A DNA stretch of 24,849 nucleotides from a virus. The DNA lies in IMG/VR virus record IMGVR_UViG_3300032093_000787, positions 1 to 24,849 of that record. The stretch is one strand, 5' to 3'. Shown here in pieces: positions 2,883 through 24,849 of this stretch. The notes beneath the pieces are model-generated. The model did no database searches. It saw nothing but the letters and a program-made list of their open reading frames with translations, and had not been told where the DNA came from. The position numbers and the translations under genes were made by a program. Position 1 is the stretch's first letter; the number at the start of each line of letters is the position of its first letter.

Positions 2883-3512
2883 CTATGCTTCAAAAGGCAG
2901 TGGGCTTGAGATGTAAGACTGCAAGAACATTTTGGCCGGACTCTCAGCCGGAGAGAGTAATTCGCCAAGCATGTTTTCTGTCATACTTTCTTCAAACGTT
3001 TTTGGTTTCTTGATGCTGGACTGCAATAAGTTCAACAAACCTAGAGTCAATAAATCTTCTTGGCCTTCTCCTTCGGTTACAGGAAGTTGTGTAGAAGGTC
3101 GGTCAGTTGACCCAGGCATTACATCGGTTAGTTTTCCTTCTGGTGTTTTGTAACGACCAGTAGCAAGCCATTCAAGTTGTGGATCTGTTATGTATTTCTT
3201 GCCCTCAAGAGCCAGATGAACATGGGTGTCATGGCCTGGATCGCCAGGGCCAAGTGCTTCACTAAATAAGCCAAGTTGTTTGGCACGCCAGCTTAATTCG
3301 CCTGTGCGTTGCTTCCAGGGAATTGGTTTTCCTCCTTCATAGGCAGGCGCTACATCAGGACGCCAATCAGTTACATCGATAGCAAGACCTTTGGGGTGGT
3401 AACCGGTAGGTGAGTGCCCTCCTCCTACACCACCAAACGCTGGGTTTTCGCCAACTCTTAAGCCATAACGCTGAAGATATTTGCCAATATCAACAATTGA
3501 TCGTTCAGCCAT
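2883..3512 (-). CDS. M15-type zinc peptidase (D-Ala-D-Ala carboxypeptidase-like)
   Basis: The N-terminal 105 residues of this 209-aa protein carry the metal-binding signature of M15/Hedgehog-type peptidases. HPKGLAID (H39, D46) matches HxxGxAxD, and HDTHVHLA supplies the HxH histidines (H97, H99). These enzymes cleave peptidoglycan stem peptides or cross-bridges. The C-terminal half (after about residue 120) is a Glu/Ser/Leu-rich extension without a known fold, ending in short helices (SMTENMLGELLSP). There is no signal peptide, so access to the wall would need a holin or delivery in the virion. Together with the lytic transglycosylase three genes downstream it gives the phage complementary glycan and peptide cleavage. 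No Shine-Dalgarno sequence precedes the ATG. Confidence 0.88.
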   Translation of the reverse strand: MAERSIVDIGKYLQRYGLRVGENPAFGGVGGGHSPTGYHPKGLAIDVTDWRPDVAPAYEGGKPIPWKQRTGELSWRAKQLGLFSEALGPGDPGHDTHVHLALEGKKYITDPQLEWLATGRYKTPEGKLTDVMPGSTDRPSTQLPVTEGEGQEDLLTLGLLNLLQSSIKKPKTFEESMTENMLGELLSPAESPAKMFLQSYISSPLPFEA

Positions 3513-4868: not shown

Positions 4869-6029
4869 TCAGATGCTGCCGTCATCAGACACGAAGCTGT
4901 AAGCAGTGGTCACGAAGTCCTTGTTCAGGATCTCGAAGCCGGCGTACAGTTGCCAAATCAGGATGATGAAGCGGCTGAAGTCGTCGTTGTTGTTGATGAG
5001 CACCTGGGCGTTAGGACCACCGATACCCACACCGATCGACTGAGGACCGAAGAAGTAACCTTGGGCAACCTCTTGGTTGGAGAAGGTGTTTGCACCGTCG
5101 CTGGCGAAGGTAGCAGACACAGTCTTGCTTGGGAAGTTGGTCGACTCGAAGAACTTCACGCCTTCGAACTGAACACCAGTCGGCATCACAGGCTCACCAG
5201 CCAGGAAGTAGCCCTGACCAGCTTGGGGACCCATGTAGAAGCTGGAGTTGTTAGGCATCATGGGGTTACCCATGTACATGCCTTGACCAGGATTGCCGCT
5301 GTAACGTGCGATCTCACGGAAGTCAGGATCACGACGCAGGTGCATCATGAAGGTGGGATCGCAGATGCAACGATACAGACCATCAGCGAAGGTAGGAACG
5401 TTGCGCTTACGCAGGTCCTTAACAACGGTCAGCAGGTCGGTACGCACCTGGAACTGCTGCACATCAGCGGTGTACTCAGCAGCGGTGTAGGAGATGGAGC
5501 CGTTAGCAGCTTTGGTCTTGCCACCGGGGAAGTAGTAACCACCCTGGGTGCTAGAAGCTTCACCATTGGCTTCAGCTTTGGCGAGTTCATCAATGAACAC
5601 GCGGTCACGCCAACGGCGGTAGTCGTCCAGCAGGGTCAGGCTACCGATGGACTGGTGGAACATGTTGAGGTTCCCGGTGTCCAGCAGCAGACGCTGAGCA
5701 GTGATCAGAGTCTCGCGAGCAATCTTGAAGGTGCTGGGCTGGGTCGGATCACCCGGGTCTGCAGGACCAGTGTATTCCTTAAGCACCACCAGGACTTTCT
5801 CCTTGGTGATGTTACGGCTGTTAGCGGTACCGATGGTCTGATCGGCAATACGCTCACGGCTGTCCTTCGTACCAGGGGTACCCCAGAACTTGTAGCGGTC
5901 TAACTGAACAGTCTGACCAGGCTGGCGAGTGAAGTCATGAACGACCACAGGCTCGACGGCCATTTCTGCGATATACGCAGGGTGGGGACGGTAAAGTTCC
6001 GCACCCAAGATTTTTGGAAAATCGTTCTC
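4869..6029 (-). CDS. Major capsid protein, main exon
   Basis: This frame encodes about 386 residues and includes ILGAELYRPHPAYIAEMAVE. It lies after terminase, portal and scaffold candidate, which is the canonical capsid position. It has the length, mixed alpha/beta composition and highly regular GC-rich codon use expected of a major capsid protein. Segments such as QRLLLDTGNLNMFHQSIG and FGPQSIGVGIGGPNAQVLI fit a shell protein. There is no ATG at the N-terminus. The frame is open upstream only to a TAA in the flanking RNA, and the sole in-frame candidate start is a TTG at 6006-6008 without a suitably spaced Shine-Dalgarno sequence. The group I intron abutting it explains this: exon 1 (6854-6862) supplies the start. 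The 3' splice site is placed after G6030 or G6027, both in frame. Confidence 0.85.
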   Translation of the reverse strand, partial: ENDFPKILGAELYRPHPAYIAEMAVEPVVVHDFTRQPGQTVQLDRYKFWGTPGTKDSRERIADQTIGTANSRNITKEKVLVVLKEYTGPADPGDPTQPSTFKIARETLITAQRLLLDTGNLNMFHQSIGSLTLLDDYRRWRDRVFIDELAKAEANGEASSTQGGYYFPGGKTKAANGSISYTAAEYTADVQQFQVRTDLLTVVKDLRKRNVPTFADGLYRCICDPTFMMHLRRDPDFREIARYSGNPGQGMYMGNPMMPNNSSFYMGPQAGQGYFLAGEPVMPTGVQFEGVKFFESTNFPSKTVSATFASDGANTFSNQEVAQGYFFGPQSIGVGIGGPNAQVLINNNDDFSRFIILIWQLYAGFEILNKDFVTTAYSFVSDDGSI

Positions 6030-6853
6030 CTGGTCTCTAGTTTCTTAGAGGGGTGGACTATCTCTTCATCCCTGAGGGATGCCGGACGCTAAATCTGGTA
6101 TTACGTAACAAGAACGTGTTACCCCCAGTAGTCTCTGCACCTTCCAATCACGCTTGATTGGCTTGGCTCAGGATTACCCTCGTCTTTACGTTAGGGCTTC
6201 CCTGAATTCATCCGGTTTGCACTCATCGATTGCTCGGTGAGGTGACAACGTTGAGCGTTCAGTTGAGGCGTGTTAAGCTTTGGAAACTTGTTTATAAACA
6301 ATATGAATCCAAAACTTGTTCCTGGATTTGGTAATCTTTACTTAACAGAAGAAGGAAAGGCTTTCGAAAAACAACTTGATCCCGACAATCAAGAATACTT
6401 TCGAGAGATTCCCATCAGATCGACCAGTGTTTATGACCGTATTTCAGTTCTTGTAGATGGAAAACGAAAAAGATTTCATCTTCACGTCTTGATGGCGGTT
6501 GCCTTTTTAGGATTAGATCTGCGTTCTCACGGAACCAGTAACTTTTCCTTACAGGTTGATCACAAAGATAACAACAAGAAAAACAATCGAGTTGAAAATC
6601 TAGAGATCGTTACCAAACAAGAAAATTTAACAAGAGCCTGGAAAAACGGTTGTTATGAAAACAATGGCTTTGCCAGTAAAGGGAAACCGAAAAAATCTTT
6701 GAGAAAGTTTTCTTCGGTCGATGTGGAACAGATTAAAGCTTTAAAAAAAGCTGGTCTCTCTTACAGAAAGATAGCTGAAAAGTTTAACTGCAACCACGGA
6801 GCTATTTACCAAATCCTAAAAGGATACACCTACCAGGATCTGAACTAGCTATC
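6030..6853 (-). ncRNA. Group I intron (subgroup IA-like) in the major capsid gene
   Basis: Read on the minus strand, the conserved core elements appear in order. P is AATTCAGGGAAGCC (6208-6195) and Q is AATCCTGAGCCAAGCC (6175-6160). R is GTGCAGAGACTA (6140-6129) and S is AAGAGATAGTCC (6066-6055). P4 pairs TTCAGG with CCTGAG, and P7 pairs GACTA with TAGTC. P3 pairs CCGGA with TCCGG. P8 is a CATCCC/GGGATG hairpin (6081-6067), and P9 is CTCTA/TAGAG (6050-6035). Extra stems between P7 and P3 (CTGG/CCAG enclosing GTAAC/GTTAC) are typical of subgroup IA. P1 is nine pairs: TTCATTGAT at the 5' junction with ATCGATGAG (6230-6222), with a U-G pair at the splice site. The 5' site is firm to a few bases. 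The 3' G (6030 or 6027) is not settled. An HNH gene fills the P1 loop in antisense. Confidence 0.88.
6303..6848 (+). CDS. HNH homing endonuclease within the group I intron, antisense to it
   Basis: The ATG start gives 181 aa (MNPKLVPGFGNLYLTEEG). An in-frame GTG at 6270 would add 11 residues, and neither start has a convincing Shine-Dalgarno sequence. The HNH core lies at about residues 58-110: LHVLMAVAFLG, then VDHKDNNKKNNRVENLEIVT with the central His and Asn of the beta-beta-alpha-metal fold, then QENLTRAW. The last 40 residues (VEQIKALKKAGLSYRKIAEKF) form a helix-turn-helix of the type found at the C-terminus of intron endonucleases. Such enzymes nick or cut an intronless allele and drive intron spread. 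The gene is AT-richer than its neighbours and is the only plus-strand gene in the left 22 kb. Its TAG ends 5 nt from the 5' splice site. Confidence 0.92.
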   Translation: MNPKLVPGFGNLYLTEEGKAFEKQLDPDNQEYFREIPIRSTSVYDRISVLVDGKRKRFHLHVLMAVAFLGLDLRSHGTSNFSLQVDHKDNNKKNNRVENLEIVTKQENLTRAWKNGCYENNGFASKGKPKKSLRKFSSVDVEQIKALKKAGLSYRKIAEKFNCNHGAIYQILKGYTYQDLN

Positions 6854-6862
6854 AATGAACAC
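6854..6862 (-). other. Predicted major capsid exon 1 (GTG TTC ATT)
   Basis: On the minus strand a strong GGAGG (6877-6873) is followed after 10 nt by GTGTTCATT, after which the frame closes (GAT AGC TAG). If the group I intron is removed after ATT, the three codons join the capsid frame in phase, giving MFI followed by ENDFPKIL or NDFPKIL. The final T is the base predicted to form the U-G pair of P1. An alternative P1 (AGTGTTCA with TGAACGCT) would move the junction upstream, but none of its products keeps a start codon in frame that I can find. Confidence 0.6.
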
Positions 6863-7484: not shown

Positions 7485-8408
7485 TCACTCCATCACGAAG
7501 AGTTTGTTGGACACAACGTTGGGCTGAGCCTGGTTCAGAACGCGCCAGGCATTCTGGGGATCACGAGCCATGATGTCGTTGAAGGTGCCCCAGAAGTTTT
7601 GAGGCTGCTGAGGAGCTGCGGCAGCAGGGGGAGCGGGGAACTCACCATAAGCATATGGATCCACTTCTTCAGTGGGATAACCATACTGCTCAAGATCTGC
7701 TTCACCTTCATGAACAGGGTATGGACCTTCGGGACCAAAGAACCGAAGGGTGTAATCACTGAGAACGTCAGGATTGGTCAGAATCTCGTTATAAGCAAGA
7801 TTCTCAGTATGAGACTGAACAGCAAAGTCAGCGTAACCCTGAAGGGTTTCAGTCATCTCGGTACCCCAAGCCACGGCACTGTCAAGCAGTGCTTCAAGCT
7901 GGAGGGCATAATTATTTAGAATTGCGGGAGCTTCGCTTCCGAACGCTTCGATTACTTGCAGGCTTTCCTGACTGATCCCCTCCGAGAAGGTTGGGGAAGA
8001 GCTGGGCGAGTAAGCCTGGTTGGTTGACCAGGTCTGCGGAGCCGATTGTTGCGTAGCTTGGCTGCTGCTCAGTCCGTAATTGGCCGGGGTATAGCTCGTC
8101 GGAGCTGATGGTTGAGCCTGGAACGGGGATTGAACTGGAGCGCTCAGCAGGTTCACTACTTTGTTGAACGCCGATTCCCATGGGTTGCTGCTCGGTGCTT
8201 CCGGTTGGGATTGGGGGGCGTACTGAGTAGGGGCTGAGGGTTGGTAAACCGGGGCCGCCTGAGGTGCTGCCACCTGGTAATTCGCCGGGGCTGCTTGGTA
8301 CGAGACCGGGGCTTGGCTCGGCTGGTAAGACGGAGTCACGTAGCTGCTCGGCGCTACTGCCGGAGTCGGGCTCGTCTGTGGGATCGATTGGACGGTAGCG
8401 TCCTGCAT
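7485..8408 (-). CDS. Scaffold protein candidate, 5' half overprinted on the portal gene
   Basis: The 307-aa product starts at an ATG 7 nt after a strong GGAG (AAAAGGAGATGAGTT) located inside the portal coding sequence. Residues 1-150 are an extreme Pro/Gln/Ser/Ala/Tyr-rich disordered region (SYQPSQAPVSYQAAPANYQ). Residues 150-205 are acidic and helical (ESLQVIEAFGSEAPAILNNY, then LEALLDSAVAWGTEMTETLQ). The C-terminus has Pro-rich linkers and a short helix near NFWGTFNDIMARDPQNAWRV. A gene between portal and capsid with a disordered, helical, acidic character is typical of scaffolding proteins. The first 497 nt overlap the portal gene in another frame, an unusually long overlap. Confidence 0.78.
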   Translation of the reverse strand: MQDATVQSIPQTSPTPAVAPSSYVTPSYQPSQAPVSYQAAPANYQVAAPQAAPVYQPSAPTQYAPQSQPEAPSSNPWESAFNKVVNLLSAPVQSPFQAQPSAPTSYTPANYGLSSSQATQQSAPQTWSTNQAYSPSSSPTFSEGISQESLQVIEAFGSEAPAILNNYALQLEALLDSAVAWGTEMTETLQGYADFAVQSHTENLAYNEILTNPDVLSDYTLRFFGPEGPYPVHEGEADLEQYGYPTEEVDPYAYGEFPAPPAAAAPQQPQNFWGTFNDIMARDPQNAWRVLNQAQPNVVSNKLFVME

Positions 8409-10158
8409 AACTCATCTCCTTTTGTAATGCTTCTAAGGTTCGATACAGATATGGAGTTAAATCCAACCTGGGATCTGCAGCCATCGGTAAATTCGGCGAC
8501 TGCGGGTGAGGGGTCTGCATCAAACCCGCCACCAGGCGAGAGAACTGGGAGAAAGCACCCTGTAGTTCATTCACCATCCTGAACGGGAACCCAGATAGCA
8601 TCTCGGCCCGCTCCTCATCCGTCTTAGACGGGAAGAGGTATTTCAGTGCTTCAATGCTATCAACCCCTAATTCCTGAAGGTTTCTAACAACAATAGAGTT
8701 GTTCAAAACATCTTGCGTGGAATCTTCATAGACGGGACCCGTCCATCTCCACAGCATAGTCAAATCGCCATCAGGAATTAAACCCGTTACGCCAGGCGGT
8801 ACCTGGCGAGCATCGATACATGCGGCCAGGGCAGATTCAACTTGGCTTTCAAACTGAGCTAAAGCTTGTTGATAACCAGCTTTTTCTTCATTTGTTGCTG
8901 TTGGAGCTGGCTCCACAGGTTGTTCAATGCCCGTTGCAGCAGCAAGGGTTTTGCGGAATAACTGCTCTTCTTGATAGATAATTAACTCAAGACAACGACA
9001 GATACCGTATGTATAAACAGCCATTGCTTTTTTCTTCGATGTTGCAGAAACGCGTCCGAATAAAGATTTGTATTCTGTAGCAGTTACACCAGCAGAGATA
9101 GAAAGTTCATCAACACCACCAAGTGCAGTACGAATTTCTTCCCTGAAGGAACGTGCAAAATTATTTTGGTCGCCAGTAATTGCATCTGGAACGATATAAC
9201 CAACACGATCGTTTGGCTCCAGGTTTGCGATCACACGAGGAACGCGGATCTGGCCATCGACACCACGGCTGATTGGATCTGCTTTAAACGCTGAGCGACT
9301 CAATGCACCCATCCCTGTAAAGCCAGAGTTGGCTGCAATGGAAGGACGCTGAACGACAGAGTCAGTCCCAGACTCCATCAAGTCAGTCTTGGGACGAGAC
9401 GACAGAAGCGTTGGGTTACCAAAGAACTGAACGTTCTTGCGCATGGTGCGAACCAACTCATCGTGAATGATAATGTGGTTGGCCAACGCATCAAATTCAC
9501 CGAAACCTTCCTTCGCGAACCCCTTCGGATTATTGAAGATCTCAACGCAGGGGATAAAACCTAAAGTATTTTTAACTTTCTTGTTCTTGCCTGGGGTCAC
9601 ATAAGCAGGGGCATCAAAAGACATCTCACCTTCTGAGTGAGTTTCCTCGATCTCATCTGCCTTGATCGAAAGCCTGATGTAACGCTTAGCTCCTTGATCA
9701 CCAGTGTTCGCAGCGCCTGTCAACGAAGCAGCATTGAGGCCATCAACCATGCCAGAGCTGCGCCGCACCCTGTAGCTGTAGATGATGACGACTTCTTCTA
9801 ATTCACCGTCAACGTTGTAGTAACTGCGGTACTCATGCTCACGGAAGTAGTAAATTCTGTAATTATCTTTTGTAGGCCTGATGTAAAAGATGCCTTTGCC
9901 ATCACACAGGAAATAATCCCAGATAGAATCCAGGCGAATATCGATTTGATTGTATTTAACAACACGCTCAACAAAGTCTTTGCGTTGAGCACCAAAATTG
10001 TCCTGACCGGGAAAAAACTCAACCCCTTGGCGAATGCCAAAGAGTTTCATCTGGGCAAGGTGGGACGCAACGATACCGGTATCGACAGTTGTCGAACCGT
10101 CTTTATCCAGGTAGGAATTAATGATTTCCTGGAGCCTTACCTTTGCATCCGTGGCCAT
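7912..10158 (-). CDS. Portal protein
   Basis: This 748-aa protein lies downstream of the large terminase and upstream of the scaffold and capsid genes, the standard portal position. The first 550 residues are globular alpha/beta. They include an N-terminal helix (VRLQEIINSYLDKDGSTTVD), a wing-like beta region (GIFYIRPTKDNYRIYYFREH) and a long helical stem/clip region (ELSISAGVTATEYKSLFGRV, then KKAMAVYTYGICRCLELIIY). The portal dodecamer forms the DNA channel at the capsid vertex and docks the terminase. Residues from about 583 are a disordered Pro/Ser/Gly-rich tail with a basic end (RSVRKRSSRNSK). This tail is encoded in the bases shared with the scaffold candidate. The ATG overlaps the stop of the upstream 49-aa gene by one base, with an AAGGA before it. 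Confidence 0.9.
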   Translation of the reverse strand: MATDAKVRLQEIINSYLDKDGSTTVDTGIVASHLAQMKLFGIRQGVEFFPGQDNFGAQRKDFVERVVKYNQIDIRLDSIWDYFLCDGKGIFYIRPTKDNYRIYYFREHEYRSYYNVDGELEEVVIIYSYRVRRSSGMVDGLNAASLTGAANTGDQGAKRYIRLSIKADEIEETHSEGEMSFDAPAYVTPGKNKKVKNTLGFIPCVEIFNNPKGFAKEGFGEFDALANHIIIHDELVRTMRKNVQFFGNPTLLSSRPKTDLMESGTDSVVQRPSIAANSGFTGMGALSRSAFKADPISRGVDGQIRVPRVIANLEPNDRVGYIVPDAITGDQNNFARSFREEIRTALGGVDELSISAGVTATEYKSLFGRVSATSKKKAMAVYTYGICRCLELIIYQEEQLFRKTLAAATGIEQPVEPAPTATNEEKAGYQQALAQFESQVESALAACIDARQVPPGVTGLIPDGDLTMLWRWTGPVYEDSTQDVLNNSIVVRNLQELGVDSIEALKYLFPSKTDEERAEMLSGFPFRMVNELQGAFSQFSRLVAGLMQTPHPQSPNLPMAADPRLDLTPYLYRTLEALQKEMSYAGRYRPIDPTDEPDSGSSAEQLRDSVLPAEPSPGLVPSSPGELPGGSTSGGPGLPTLSPYSVRPPIPTGSTEQQPMGIGVQQSSEPAERSSSIPVPGSTISSDELYPGQLRTEQQPSYATIGSADLVNQPGLLAQLFPNLLGGDQSGKPASNRSVRKRSSRNSK

Positions 10159-23123: not shown

Positions 23124-23195
23124 GTCTGCATATAAGACAGTGTGTATCTAACTGGATGATCGGGGGCTGCGCATCCGAACCACGCAGACATTCCA
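23124..23195 (+). ncRNA. tRNA-sized folded leader ending ATTCCA
   Basis: GTCTGC (23124-23129) pairs with GCAGAC (23184-23189), enclosing 54 nt, and is followed by ATTCCA. Size and 3' end recall a tRNA, but no D-arm or T-arm is present. GGATG/CATCC (23154-23158 with 23172-23176) fits inside, while CTGCG/CGCAG (23167-23171 with 23183-23187) would compete with the closing stem. It lies just upstream of the 55-aa gene, in the place the T-arm-like elements occupy before later genes. Confidence 0.35.
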
Positions 23196-23208: not shown

Positions 23209-23376
23209 ATGCCGGTCAACGTCCGTCAACAGCAACAGCTTCATGACATCTGGGTAGCAACTCATACTCCTCAGTGGGTACTTGAAGCAGAAGCACAGGA
23301 AGAAGGTTGGATCACTGATGACCAGCATGCAGCTAATGCATGGTGGGATTCACAGTCCGATGAGATTCCGTTCTGA
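23209..23376 (+). CDS. Small acidic protein, 55 aa
   Basis: This short complete frame has an ATG (23209-23211) preceded by CAACTCAACA and no Shine-Dalgarno sequence. The product MPVNVRQQQQLHDIWVATHT... is acidic and Trp/Gln-rich with a helical middle (WVLEAEAQEEGWITDDQHAA) and ends WDSQSDEIPF. The composition is coherent and the leader matches those of the following genes, which supports it as coding. Its stop codon lies within the closing stem of the next RNA element. Function unknown. Confidence 0.72.
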   Translation: MPVNVRQQQQLHDIWVATHTPQWVLEAEAQEEGWITDDQHAANAWWDSQSDEIPF

Positions 23377-23440
23377 GTACCAGGCGTGATGCCGGGGGAT
23401 CGAATCCCCCGCTCAGTATTACCCACAGCGGAGATGGGTA
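23373..23440 (+). ncRNA. T-arm-like intercistronic element 1
   Basis: CTGAG (23373-23377), containing the upstream TGA, pairs with CTCAG (23412-23416). A 15-nt linker follows. CGGGGG (23393-23398) then pairs with CCCCCG (23406-23411) around the 7-nt loop ATCGAAT, and its 3' strand is contiguous with CTCAG. The two stems would stack as 11 pairs, like a tRNA acceptor on a T-arm. The loop matches the T-loop consensus TTCRANY at six of seven positions. TATTACCCA follows, with TACCCA/TGGGTA (23420-23425 and 23435-23440) as a second hairpin. Confidence 0.6.
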
Positions 23441-23458
23441 CCGCACCGCAACACAACA

Positions 23459-23629
23459 ATGCAACTTAACTTCAACGAAGCAGACTTCCTCATGCACTGC
23501 ATCGAACTGTTTGTAGGTCAAACCAACTCCAGCTTTATGGATTGTGAAATGAAGGAAGTCATGATGGATTCCACTCAGATCAATGATCTGTTCCTAAGAA
23601 TCCAGGAGTCTAAATTTGCTGACAGCTGA
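23459..23629 (+). CDS. Small acidic protein, 56 aa
   Basis: The ATG at 23459-23461 is preceded by CAACACAACA, the same CA-rich leader as the gene before it. The product MQLNFNEADFLMHCIELFVG... continues with MDCEMKEVMMDSTQINDLFL and ends KFADS. It is acidic, helical and methionine-rich, with two cysteines and no known motif. It is clearly protein-like in hydrophobic pattern. The TGA stop lies inside the closing stem of T-arm-like element 2. Confidence 0.75.
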   Translation: MQLNFNEADFLMHCIELFVGQTNSSFMDCEMKEVMMDSTQINDLFLRIQESKFADS

Positions 23630-23690
23630 TCCGTCAAAGCGGGTGACCAGGTGCAAATCCTGGTCCAGTTATTGCCACACTCACGTGGCA
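23624..23690 (+). ncRNA. T-arm-like intercistronic element 2
   Basis: AGCTG (23624-23628), overlapping the upstream TGA, pairs with CAGTT (23666-23670, one G-U). After a 16-nt linker GACCAGG (23645-23651) pairs with CCTGGTC (23659-23665) around TGCAAAT. The strands are contiguous, giving a 12-pair stack, the length of acceptor plus T-stem in tRNA. The loop matches TTCRANY at six of seven positions. ATTGCCA follows, and TGCCAC/GTGGCA (23673-23678 with 23685-23690) forms a second hairpin. The stems differ in sequence from element 1 while the layout is conserved. Confidence 0.62.
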
Positions 23691-23705: not shown

Positions 23706-23873
23706 ATGATTCGTCAACGTTTGTCCCAGCTCCTTGCCGTGGCAGCGGTCAAGGTAGCTCAAGACCAAACTCCTGAGCACATCAAAGCTCAGCTCAAAGT
23801 GCGTCGTGAAGCATTGGCCACTGAGGTCAATGGTTACCGCAACGCACTGGCAACACTCATCGCGGCTAAATGA
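23706..23873 (+). CDS. Small basic helical protein, 55 aa
   Basis: The ATG at 23706 is chosen because the CA-rich leader (CTCAACGCAAC) ends there. The frame is also open upstream from 23616, but that would run through the RNA element. The product MIRQRLSQLLAVAAVKVAQD... is an amphipathic basic helix pair, with HIKAQLKVRREALATEVNGY and an end of ATLIAAK. It may bind nucleic acid or a host protein, but nothing specific supports this. Its stop overlaps the next start by 4 nt (ATGA). Confidence 0.76.
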   Translation: MIRQRLSQLLAVAAVKVAQDQTPEHIKAQLKVRREALATEVNGYRNALATLIAAK

Positions 23874-24118: not shown

Positions 24119-24189
24119 TTGATTCCTGCTCTAAGGGGCTACGGCCCTTTACTGCAGAAATCTTCTGCAACTACTAGTTCACATACATC
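24119..24189 (+). other. Intercistronic spacer with two hairpins
   Basis: AAGGG (24133-24137) pairs with CCCTT (24145-24149) around a 7-nt loop. TGCAGAA (24153-24159) pairs with TTCTGCA (24163-24169) around ATC. CTGC at 24126-24129 can also pair with GCAG at 24154-24157, so the second hairpin and a longer outer stem exclude each other. No T-loop-like sequence is present. The leader before the next ATG lacks a Shine-Dalgarno sequence. Confidence 0.5.
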
Positions 24190-24519
24190 ATGCCAACAAA
24201 TCGACCAGGTTATCAAAGAGAGTGGCGTGACAAGAACAGAGAGAAAGCTCAAGAGCATCAGCGAAAATGGGCTGCATCTGACAAAGGCAAGCAAGTGTTA
24301 CAAGCAAGAGAGCAACGTTTGCGAGGAACACTTGAAGACAAGGCACGCAAAATGATCAAGAATCGTGTTGCACGCAAGAAGATGCCTCATGCATCCTTCT
24401 TTTTATGTACTGATTGTAATGAACGTGCTCAGCATTACCACCATGAAGACTATAAATTATGGTGGTCTGTTGAACCTCTTTGCCATGATTGCCATGGCAA
24501 AAGACATAGGAAATATTGA
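24190..24519 (+). CDS. HNH-type endonuclease, small treble-clef zinc protein
   Basis: This 109-aa protein has a basic helical N-terminal half (MPTNRPGYQREWRDKNREKA) and a C-terminal zinc-bound HNH core. The core begins CTDCNERAQHYHHEDY, giving C-x2-C followed by the HH pair, and continues with CHDCHGKRHRK, giving C-x2-CH and a final histidine. This is the usual short free-standing HNH nuclease of phages, which nicks DNA as a mobile gene or, in some phages, aids packaging. It is far from the terminase here, so a mobile or replication-linked role is likelier. It differs from the intron HNH at 6303-6848 in having zinc cysteines. Confidence 0.88.
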   Translation: MPTNRPGYQREWRDKNREKAQEHQRKWAASDKGKQVLQAREQRLRGTLEDKARKMIKNRVARKKMPHASFFLCTDCNERAQHYHHEDYKLWWSVEPLCHDCHGKRHRKY

Positions 24520-24597
24520 CTCTTGCACTTTCCCATCTGCAAAGATGGGTTACTGCAGGACTCATGTTCCTGCTTCATTCAACTCAACTCAAGTCAA
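24520..24597 (+). other. Intercistronic spacer with two perfect hairpins and CA-rich leader
   Basis: CCCATCT (24532-24538) pairs with AGATGGG (24543-24549) around GCAA, a stable GNRA tetraloop. GCAGGA (24555-24560) pairs with TCCTGC (24568-24573) around the 7-nt loop CTCATGT, which keeps only part of the T-loop pattern. No T tract follows, so neither is a terminator. CAACTCAACTCAAGTCAA leads to the next ATG. Confidence 0.6.
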
Positions 24598-24849
24598 ATG
24601 TCTGACTACAAGAAGCTCCCTGACTTCCAGCAAACCGTACTGCACGGACGTATTGCTCACATGGAGGTGGCTGAGTACCAGGATCGCAAGTTCCTTGCTG
24701 TATCCCTGGTGCACACCATCTCTGAAACAGCAGACCTCCGTATCAAGTTCACCAACAGCAACGGATTGCTTACGGCATTTAACAATGGCACTCTTGTCGT
24801 AGGACAGGAGCTGACCATCAGCGGTACCATCAAAGGCATTCGTTCCTTC
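24598..24849 (+). CDS. Partial protein with OB-fold-like strand pattern
   Basis: The ATG is preceded by the CA-rich leader shared by this module. Eighty-four codons are visible before the window ends. The product MSDYKKLPDFQQTVLHGRIA... shows alternating beta strands: HGRIAHMEVAEYQDRKFLAV, then TADLRIKFTNSNGLLTAFNN, then GQELTISGTIKGIRSF. The closing G-x-x-(L/V)-x-(I/V)-x-G-x-I pattern is reminiscent of OB-fold nucleic-acid-binding proteins. This is a pattern judgement only, and the C-terminus is missing. Confidence 0.75.
   Translation, partial: MSDYKKLPDFQQTVLHGRIAHMEVAEYQDRKFLAVSLVHTISETADLRIKFTNSNGLLTAFNNGTLVVGQELTISGTIKGIRSF

Follow-up and report, generated by a model that had tools for sequence, protein, structure and literature searches.

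The window analysed here is the whole of a 24,849-base IMG/VR virus contig whose kin is Synechococcus phage S-EIV1. Its left part carries head, packaging and tail genes on the minus strand, and at its right end a plus-strand array of small genes, encoding 55–109 aa, begins. Two structured elements are present in this array at the places where the original prediction had put them, element 1 between genes 1 and 2 and element 2 between genes 2 and 3, and in both of them the stop codon TGA of the upstream ORF falls in the 5′ strand of the closing stem (Table 1). For the 55-aa ORF upstream of element 1, searches of Pfam and PHROG up to E 0.1 gave no match.

Table 1. Features of the two intercistronic elements and adjoining ORFs (window positions)
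Feature	Position	Strand	Basis or remark
ORF upstream of element 1	23209–23376	+	55 aa; stop TGA 23374–23376 within element 1
Element 1, class II tRNA-like module	23373–23416	+	Fold and class II covariation (50 sequences, 46 distinct)
Element 1, closing stem	23373–23378/23411–23416	+	
Element 1, D-like hairpin	23383–23385/23391–23393	+	GGC-GTGAT-GCC
Element 1, T-stem	23394–23398/23406–23410	+	
Element 1, T-loop ATCGAAT	23399–23405	+	
Element 1, N73-like A and predicted RNase Z cut	A 23418; cut 23418/23419	+	Placed by the 12-nt ruler; putative cut
Element 1, 3′ module: UU, then H-type pseudoknot	23419–23444	+	Covariation in 67 sequences
Element 1, pseudoknot helices	S1 23420–23424/23436–23440; S2 23428–23431/23441–23444	+	TACCC/GGGTA and GCGG/CCGC
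ORF between elements 1 and 2	23459–23629	+	56 aa; stop TGA 23627–23629 within element 2
Element 2, class I tRNA-like module	23624–23670	+	Class I covariation (47 sequences); model R1, 77.8 bits
Element 2, closing stem	23624–23628/23666–23670	+	
Element 2, D-like hairpin	23629–23633/23640–23644	+	AUCCG-UCAAAG-CGGGU
Element 2, T-stem	23645–23651/23659–23665	+	
Element 2, T-loop TGCAAAT	23652–23658	+	
Element 2, N73-like A and predicted RNase Z cut	A 23671; cut 23671/23672	+	Placed by the 12-nt ruler; putative cut
Element 2, 3′ module: UU, then 6-bp hairpin (23673–23678/23685–23690)	23672–23690	+	z −5.1
ORF downstream of element 2 (MIRQRLSQLL..)	23706–23873	+	ORF list

The linker of 15–16 nt that had been described in both elements has that length but is not single-stranded: a small hairpin can form in it and is kept in relatives. 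The claimed absence of an anticodon and a D-arm was, as to the D-arm, too strong, since a D-like hairpin occupies this linker. The second 6-bp hairpin attributed to both elements is a plain 6-bp hairpin in element 2, whereas element 1 has an H-type pseudoknot there. A CCA-like position had also been proposed; the bases 3′ of N73 are UUA in element 1 and UUG in element 2, with no CCA at the tRNA position. The elements are indeed not tRNA genes, as ARAGORN found 0 tRNAs in the window and the elements had no Rfam tRNA match. No tmRNA was found in the window by ARAGORN or the Rfam model, sub-threshold matches occurring only in relatives. No Rfam family matched the window elements over its gathering cut-off, with sub-threshold matches at lax thresholds, and an Rfam scan of S-EIV1 at lax thresholds gave sub-threshold matches only.

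Taken alone, each fold is only moderately unusual against chance, with folding z-scores of −2.7 and −3.7 for elements 1 and 2 (−2.1 and −3.1 with the 3′ hairpin). The stack of element 1 has 11 rather than 12 pairs, and its loop ATCGAAT can be taken up into an alternative 7-bp stem with a 3-nt loop, which the folding program favours. Two moderately unusual folds in one window could therefore not settle whether the structure is real; the relatives do.

Several other features were seen in the window. Inside the array lies a small endonuclease-like gene (24190–24519; PHROG 2340, E 8e-12), and the leader before the array's first gene contains a common hairpin, GGGGCTGCGCATC..CGCAG, found in the window (23162–23187), at loci L014 and L063 and in S-EIV1. 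A second class of intercistronic structure occupies 24119–24189 and 24520–24598 of the window and 6786–6860 of the S-EIV1 locus L002, and was seen at many of the junctions listed; it consists of CTGC, a hairpin, UU(A/U)(C/U)UGCAG and a second hairpin that overlaps GCAG with its 5′ strand, and its two folds may be mutually exclusive. Two further S-EIV1 junctions (L002, ~8020–8064 and 8713–8773) share CCCTGGGC(A/G)TCCATA .. GGT(A/G)TAAGTCCCAGG, another repeated intercistronic fold. On the minus strand, the major head protein ORF (4869–6008), whose match to its own family covers only position 59 onward, is closely preceded by a Group I intron (6034–6275; Rfam RF00028, 94.5 bits); the capsid gene of the window is probably split by this intron.

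A covarying RNA family in cyanophages

Elements 1 and 2 belong to a large cyanophage RNA family absent from Rfam. In the 5′ part of the family, a closing stem whose strand holds the upstream stop codon stacks on a T-arm, and a small hairpin separates the two; the 3′ part begins UU(G/A)CC and forms a pseudoknot or a hairpin. S-EIV1 itself has two elements with an identical 5′ strand and differing T-stems. A first scan of IMG/VR returned 47 stretches, of which 33 were elements by inspection and 14 were chance matches without a T-arm, while a broader scan returned at least 119 stretches and a class II scan 47; for two of the scans, the broader one among them, the counts are lower bounds. In a search with a covariance model, as advised at the outset, the class I model found 1–6 copies per record in 34 records preselected as carriers. 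A collection of bacterial and archaeal genomes, one for each of 84,980 species, had 0 matches to two exact patterns, one of the class I T-arm and one of the pseudoknot, and by this test, which divergent copies and contigs shorter than 3,000 bases would escape, the family is viral.

Covariation, the other property that the original prediction had asked of an alignment, supports the class I, class II and pseudoknot structures. The compensatory stem change that it had read between the two elements is real within the family but not between elements 1 and 2 themselves, which belong to classes II and I, respectively. For class I, we aligned 47 sequences (alignment A1, with two T-arm candidates, L019 and L033, left out) over 17 pairs: 97.1% of the 799 pair cells are paired, 12 pairs show double changes, and double-change cells number 133 against 37.6 after shuffling, while the pair-type count was reached by 15 of 500 shuffles. 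Six of the seven T-stem pairs have changes on both sides, and the outermost pair of the D-like hairpin is missing in 12 of the 47 rows. In rows L004 and L014 the stop codon has changed from UGA to UAA together with its partner, from C to U; in row L018, UAA occurs without this change of the partner.

Class II was assessed on all 50 instances (46 distinct), which are 91.8% paired with 14 double-change cells against 2.4 shuffled; we relied on this count because an earlier alignment (A4) of 30 hand-picked instances, 96.0% paired, flattered the closing stem. The class II T-stem and small hairpin are paired in all, the closing stem is 80.8% paired, with each of its pairs unpaired in 7–10 of the 46 distinct rows, and six instances have another 5′ part, GGTCATCTGACC. 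One real tRNA (L029) was left out of a further alignment, A2. The pseudoknot of the element 1 type is 98.3% paired in 67 sequences, with both helices changed on both sides and 58 double-change cells against 13.4 shuffled; it shows no excess of pair types over the shuffles (10 against 9.9), and 19 of 500 shuffles reached its count of double-changed pairs. A G–C pair closes the T-loop in all 47 class I and all 46 class II rows, and some minor classes have a linker of just 8 nt, without the D-like hairpin. Pairing of the T-loop GCAA with the UUGC that follows the stem was rejected on visual inspection, UUAC variants having no matching loop change.

The elements are placed as a punctuation signal would be, between coding regions and on the coding strand, and occur on both strands in 1 of 127 loci and otherwise on one strand. 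Counted from UU and looked for between about −80 and −21, the upstream stop falls at −45 in 143 of the 291 elements (127 loci; quartiles −46 and −45). The start codon follows UU at a median of 41 nt in the pseudoknot type and 35 nt in the hairpin type, with a Shine-Dalgarno-like motif before 39 of 139 and 5 of 140 starts, respectively; start codons were called mechanically, and some calls are wrong and fall inside the pseudoknot.

We then compared module types with gene families in 253 elements, with the pseudoknot-internal start region excluded in a repeat of the analysis. Among 1264 pairs that share the upstream but not the downstream gene family, the 5′ class agreed in 73%, compared with 40% of 1732 pairs that share the downstream but not the upstream family and 45% of 28,730 pairs that share neither; for the 3′ type, agreement was 54% with the same upstream family, 63% with the same downstream family and 49% with both different. 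Neither module–gene difference was reached in 1000 label shuffles, although the pairs are not independent. On these values, the 5′ module clearly behaves as the tail of the upstream gene, and the 3′ module behaves, weakly, as the head of the downstream gene. The family of the ORF downstream of element 2 has 33 members in relatives, 18 after class I, 14 after class II and 1 after another module, with a hairpin-type 3′ module in 27 of the 33, in an analysis that allowed starts inside the pseudoknot and is partly circular.

The tRNA spacing and the capsid-gene slot

Between the T-loop and UU lie 13 nt, a 12-nt 3′ strand plus N73, as in tRNA. Measured from a fixed T-loop pattern to UU(G/A)CC, with copies kept, 356 matches lay at 13 nt, 50 at 14 nt and 0–11 at each of the other distances from 8 to 18, whereas a Markov simulation of the same size, 2.57 million bases, gave 20 matches in total for the eleven distances, 1 of them at 13 nt. 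A search free of loop sequence, which skipped loops with pairable ends and thereby excluded class II, found 201 hairpins with seven-nucleotide loops at 13 nt against 14–45 at any other distance between 6 and 21. Among the loops at 13 nt, 164 fit the strict consensus [TA][TG]CRANY and 170 fit the T-loop NNCRANN, a figure that is partly circular for class I. Many loci had been fetched by loop sequence, and the class I and class II loop counts are not independent; the independent part consists of 29 T-arms, out of 174 with T-loop-like loops at 13 nt, that do not fit the class I pattern and whose loops no scan had requested. These include the canonical tRNA T-loops TTCGATT, TTCGACT, TTCAATC and TTCAATG, and about six of the 29 are near variants of class I by eye. 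At distance 6, 21 of the 45 loops are also T-loop-like; 20 of the 21 have UUGG at 13–14 nt, like the marine elements, in which TTACC is the closing strand.

Class I comprises three groups differing in the 3′ module, with A at N73 in 142 of 163 elements and UU after it in 162 of 163, where a tRNA-like structure of the plant-virus type would have a 3′ CCA. The class II stack is divided otherwise, into a 5-bp T-stem and a closing stem of mostly 6–8 bp, with A at the N73 place in 33 of 47. A minority of elements have 13 nt instead of the 12-nt 3′ strand. The top half of a tRNA is thus represented by a T-loop of the form NNCRANN with G–C closure, a 12-nt 3′ strand and compensatory stem change.

Class I-like elements also stand before the major capsid gene in marine T7-like cyanophages, for example P-SSP7, P-SSP2 and S-SBP1, where another module, UUGG, follows downstream with a pseudoknot-like stretch inside it by eye. 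We analysed 120 unique capsid slots among the matches listed, 19 more having been dropped as too near a contig end. A T-arm is present in 60 of the 120 (45 at 13 nt and 15 at 14 nt, with 8–18 allowed), a tRNA called by ARAGORN in 3 and a different, non-tRNA hairpin with the apex CACCTCAGAGTCGGA in 36; the 21 unclassed slots are by eye about 19 variants of the non-tRNA hairpin and 2 T-arm-like, and about 55 of the 120 hold something other than a tRNA-like module. At L220, L236, L237 and L239 and in these roughly 55 slots, a long hairpin that is not tRNA-like, with the conserved apex CACCTCA(G/A)(A/T)GT(C/A)GGA, stands in place of the tRNA-like module directly before UUGGC.

Real tRNAs occur in this slot in the same register. 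In NATL1A-7, an annotated tRNA-Gly ends on the ruler's N73 (record position 3479) and is followed directly by UUGGC and then the capsid gene, and at L276 the slot is occupied by a second tRNA-Gly, on which ARAGORN and Rfam agree. Three further slots (L274, L344 and L353) hold decayed sequences that are tRNA-Gly-like by eye and exceed the Rfam tRNA cut-off but are rejected by ARAGORN, and in S-RIP1 and S-TIP37 the T-loop TTCGATT lies one base further away, as counted by eye. In a single register, the slot therefore ranges from a tRNA that looks functional down to a minimal T-arm. The idea that the elements are tRNA mimics or relics is strongly supported by the T-loop consensus, the 12-nt ruler to a discriminator-like A, the covariation and the real and decayed tRNAs in this slot.

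A tRNA at L240, called by ARAGORN only and unreported by the Rfam tRNA model at E 0.5, was not counted as firm; just upstream of it is an abiF RNA match (L240 3901–3937, minus strand; RF03085, 47.8 bits). Glutamine-II lies just upstream of many marine elements, this riboswitch exceeding its cut-off in 13 of 23 marine loci scanned (L084, L085, L142, L157, L218, L219, L220, L221, L235, L274, L288, L309 and L353), several of which have a YRG-containing mini-ORF between the riboswitch and the capsid slot. Genes for tRNA-Leu with an encoded CCA were seen at eight loci (L029, L037, L091, L100, L112, L158, L196 and L228), with an ATG, a candidate start, 9–22 nt past CCA in seven of the eight and no UUGCC module.

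Proposed tRNA-like punctuation and its alternatives

Given the observed structure, covariation, ruler, position and equivalence with real tRNAs in the capsid slot of some relatives, we consider it probable that the elements act as tRNA-like punctuation between cistrons, at which host RNase Z cuts just before UU. Of the functions suggested in the original prediction, processing or protection of the individual mRNAs is thus the one we favour. The 5′ module would fold as the acceptor-plus-T-arm half of a tRNA, with about 12 stacked pairs, a T-loop and A at N73, and the small hairpin would stand in for the D and anticodon arms. Host RNase Z, the tRNA 3′-end nuclease, would most likely recognise this module and cut after N73, dividing the polycistronic phage transcript into short mRNAs. 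The one upstream would then end in a tRNA-like fold with its own stop codon retained inside, and the one downstream would start 5′-UU(G/A)CC and carry a pseudoknot or hairpin at its 5′ end, about 35–40 nt before the start codon, that could shield it from 5′-acting nucleases such as RNase J or RNase E. According to the accessible portions of two papers, the RNase Z cut falls after N73 and gives the trailer a 5′ phosphate (PMC9181182), and cyanobacteria possess RNase Z, P, E and J (PMC10989914). We found no phage-encoded RNase Z homologue in nine phage records, five of which are contigs that may be incomplete, and did find one in a Synechococcus elongatus control, so the host would supply the enzyme. 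Against tRNA-like punctuation, common descent alone could preserve the spacing within a class. For the fuller proposal, we see the balance as even: in several cyanophage lineages, host RNase Z would cut polycistrons at tRNA-like marks, one cut per junction, giving each small mRNA a stop-bearing tRNA-like 3′ end and a pseudoknot- or hairpin-capped 5′ end, with marks that grade from real and decayed tRNA-Gly into minimal T-arms, as punctuation by tRNA mimicry outside mitochondria.

The strongest rival is a stability element without cutting, in which the tRNA-like fold and the pseudoknot are exonuclease barriers in an intact polycistron, as REP-type intercistronic hairpins are. The intercistronic placement on one strand only (both strands in 1 of 127 loci), the stability of the folds and the non-tRNA hairpin in the same slot of many marine phages agree with such a role, but a T-loop, A at N73, a 12-nt ruler and a real tRNA in register are all more than a mere barrier needs, and we regard this reading as unlikely. 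It is quite unlikely that the elements serve translation, acting on the ribosome halted at the built-in stop and helping that ribosome or the next to start the downstream gene in an IRES-like or reinitiation manner. Such a function would suit the fixing of the stop codon inside the element, the starts at a median of 41 or 35 nt after UU with a Shine-Dalgarno-like motif in just 39 of 139 and 5 of 140, and the tRNA mimicry of cricket paralysis-type eukaryotic IRESs (described in the available part of PMC4810235). However, most classes were seen without an anticodon-like loop, the real tRNA-Gly of the capsid slot makes better sense as a substrate for processing, the 5′ and 3′ modules combine with different partners, and the start calls are mechanical and in some cases wrong.

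A 12-bp ruler and a T-loop are also determinants for RNase P, which, in the accessible text of PMC11143913, reads the 12-bp T-loop distance and cuts acceptor/T-arm model substrates. Yet we hold it very unlikely that RNase P, alone or with RNase Z, cuts on the 5′ side of the closing stem, since such a cut would fall 3 nt before the stop in element 2 and one nt before it in element 1 and deprive the upstream gene of its stop codon; for this reason, a mimic of the proposed kind must favour RNase Z over RNase P. The UUG that replaces CCA after N73 should, moreover, weaken RNase P binding. Finally, a role as cassette or recombination boundaries, structured repeats serving gene shuffling at the DNA level like the PeSL cassettes of T4-type phages or attC sites, would account for small-gene arrays in which the 5′ module goes with the upstream gene and the 3′ module with the downstream gene, but is highly improbable, as pairing kept while the stem sequence changes points to folding and not to homologous recombination.

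Among known systems, PeSL cassettes, made of a promoter and a stem-loop, likewise have small genes separated by structured RNA, but the present family has tRNA grammar rather than a simple hairpin. The tRNA-like structures of TYMV-type plant RNA viruses are also viral tRNA mimics, and a pseudoknot takes part in them; as far as the accessible sources describe them, they lie in 3′ untranslated regions and can be aminoacylated, whereas those of cyanophages are intercistronic and have no CCA. Punctuation of this kind is known from mitochondria, where, in the accessible text of PMC8003010, the t-elements of plants are tRNA-like folds marking cleavage sites between mRNAs. Unlike these, the present family occurs in cyanobacterial phages, often in several copies per gene cluster, and has a built-in stop codon followed by a conserved pseudoknot or hairpin module, and its cut is predicted; we found no evidence of common descent between the two. 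In the tRNA punctuation of animal mitochondria, the tRNA folds between genes are, in the accounts available, cut by RNase P and RNase Z, whereas the cyanophage family consists mostly of top-half mimics, not tRNA genes, and is cut only by prediction. Other structured RNAs of cyanophages are manA, wcaG and PhotoRC-II (accessible part of PMC2864571) and Glutamine-II (Rfam), none of which matched the window elements or S-EIV1 in Rfam scans. Literature searches on tRNA-like elements with cyanophages or phage mRNA processing, mainly of papers open without subscription and judged by the listed titles and abstracts, turned up no such description, and by these searches the family, its built-in stop, its paired 3′ module and its location in phages appear to be new.

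The family adds to the known RNAs one that is absent from Rfam and in which real tRNAs grade into minimal mimics as a natural series, and tRNA-like punctuation yields a nucleotide-exact prediction in the cultured phage P-SSP7. If it is true, phages rely on the enzymes that mature host tRNAs to cut and shape their mRNAs, an arrangement that to our knowledge is otherwise known from mitochondria. It would explain both how arrays of tiny genes, mostly without Shine-Dalgarno-like sites, are expressed and where the 5′ end of the capsid mRNA in some marine cyanophages comes from.
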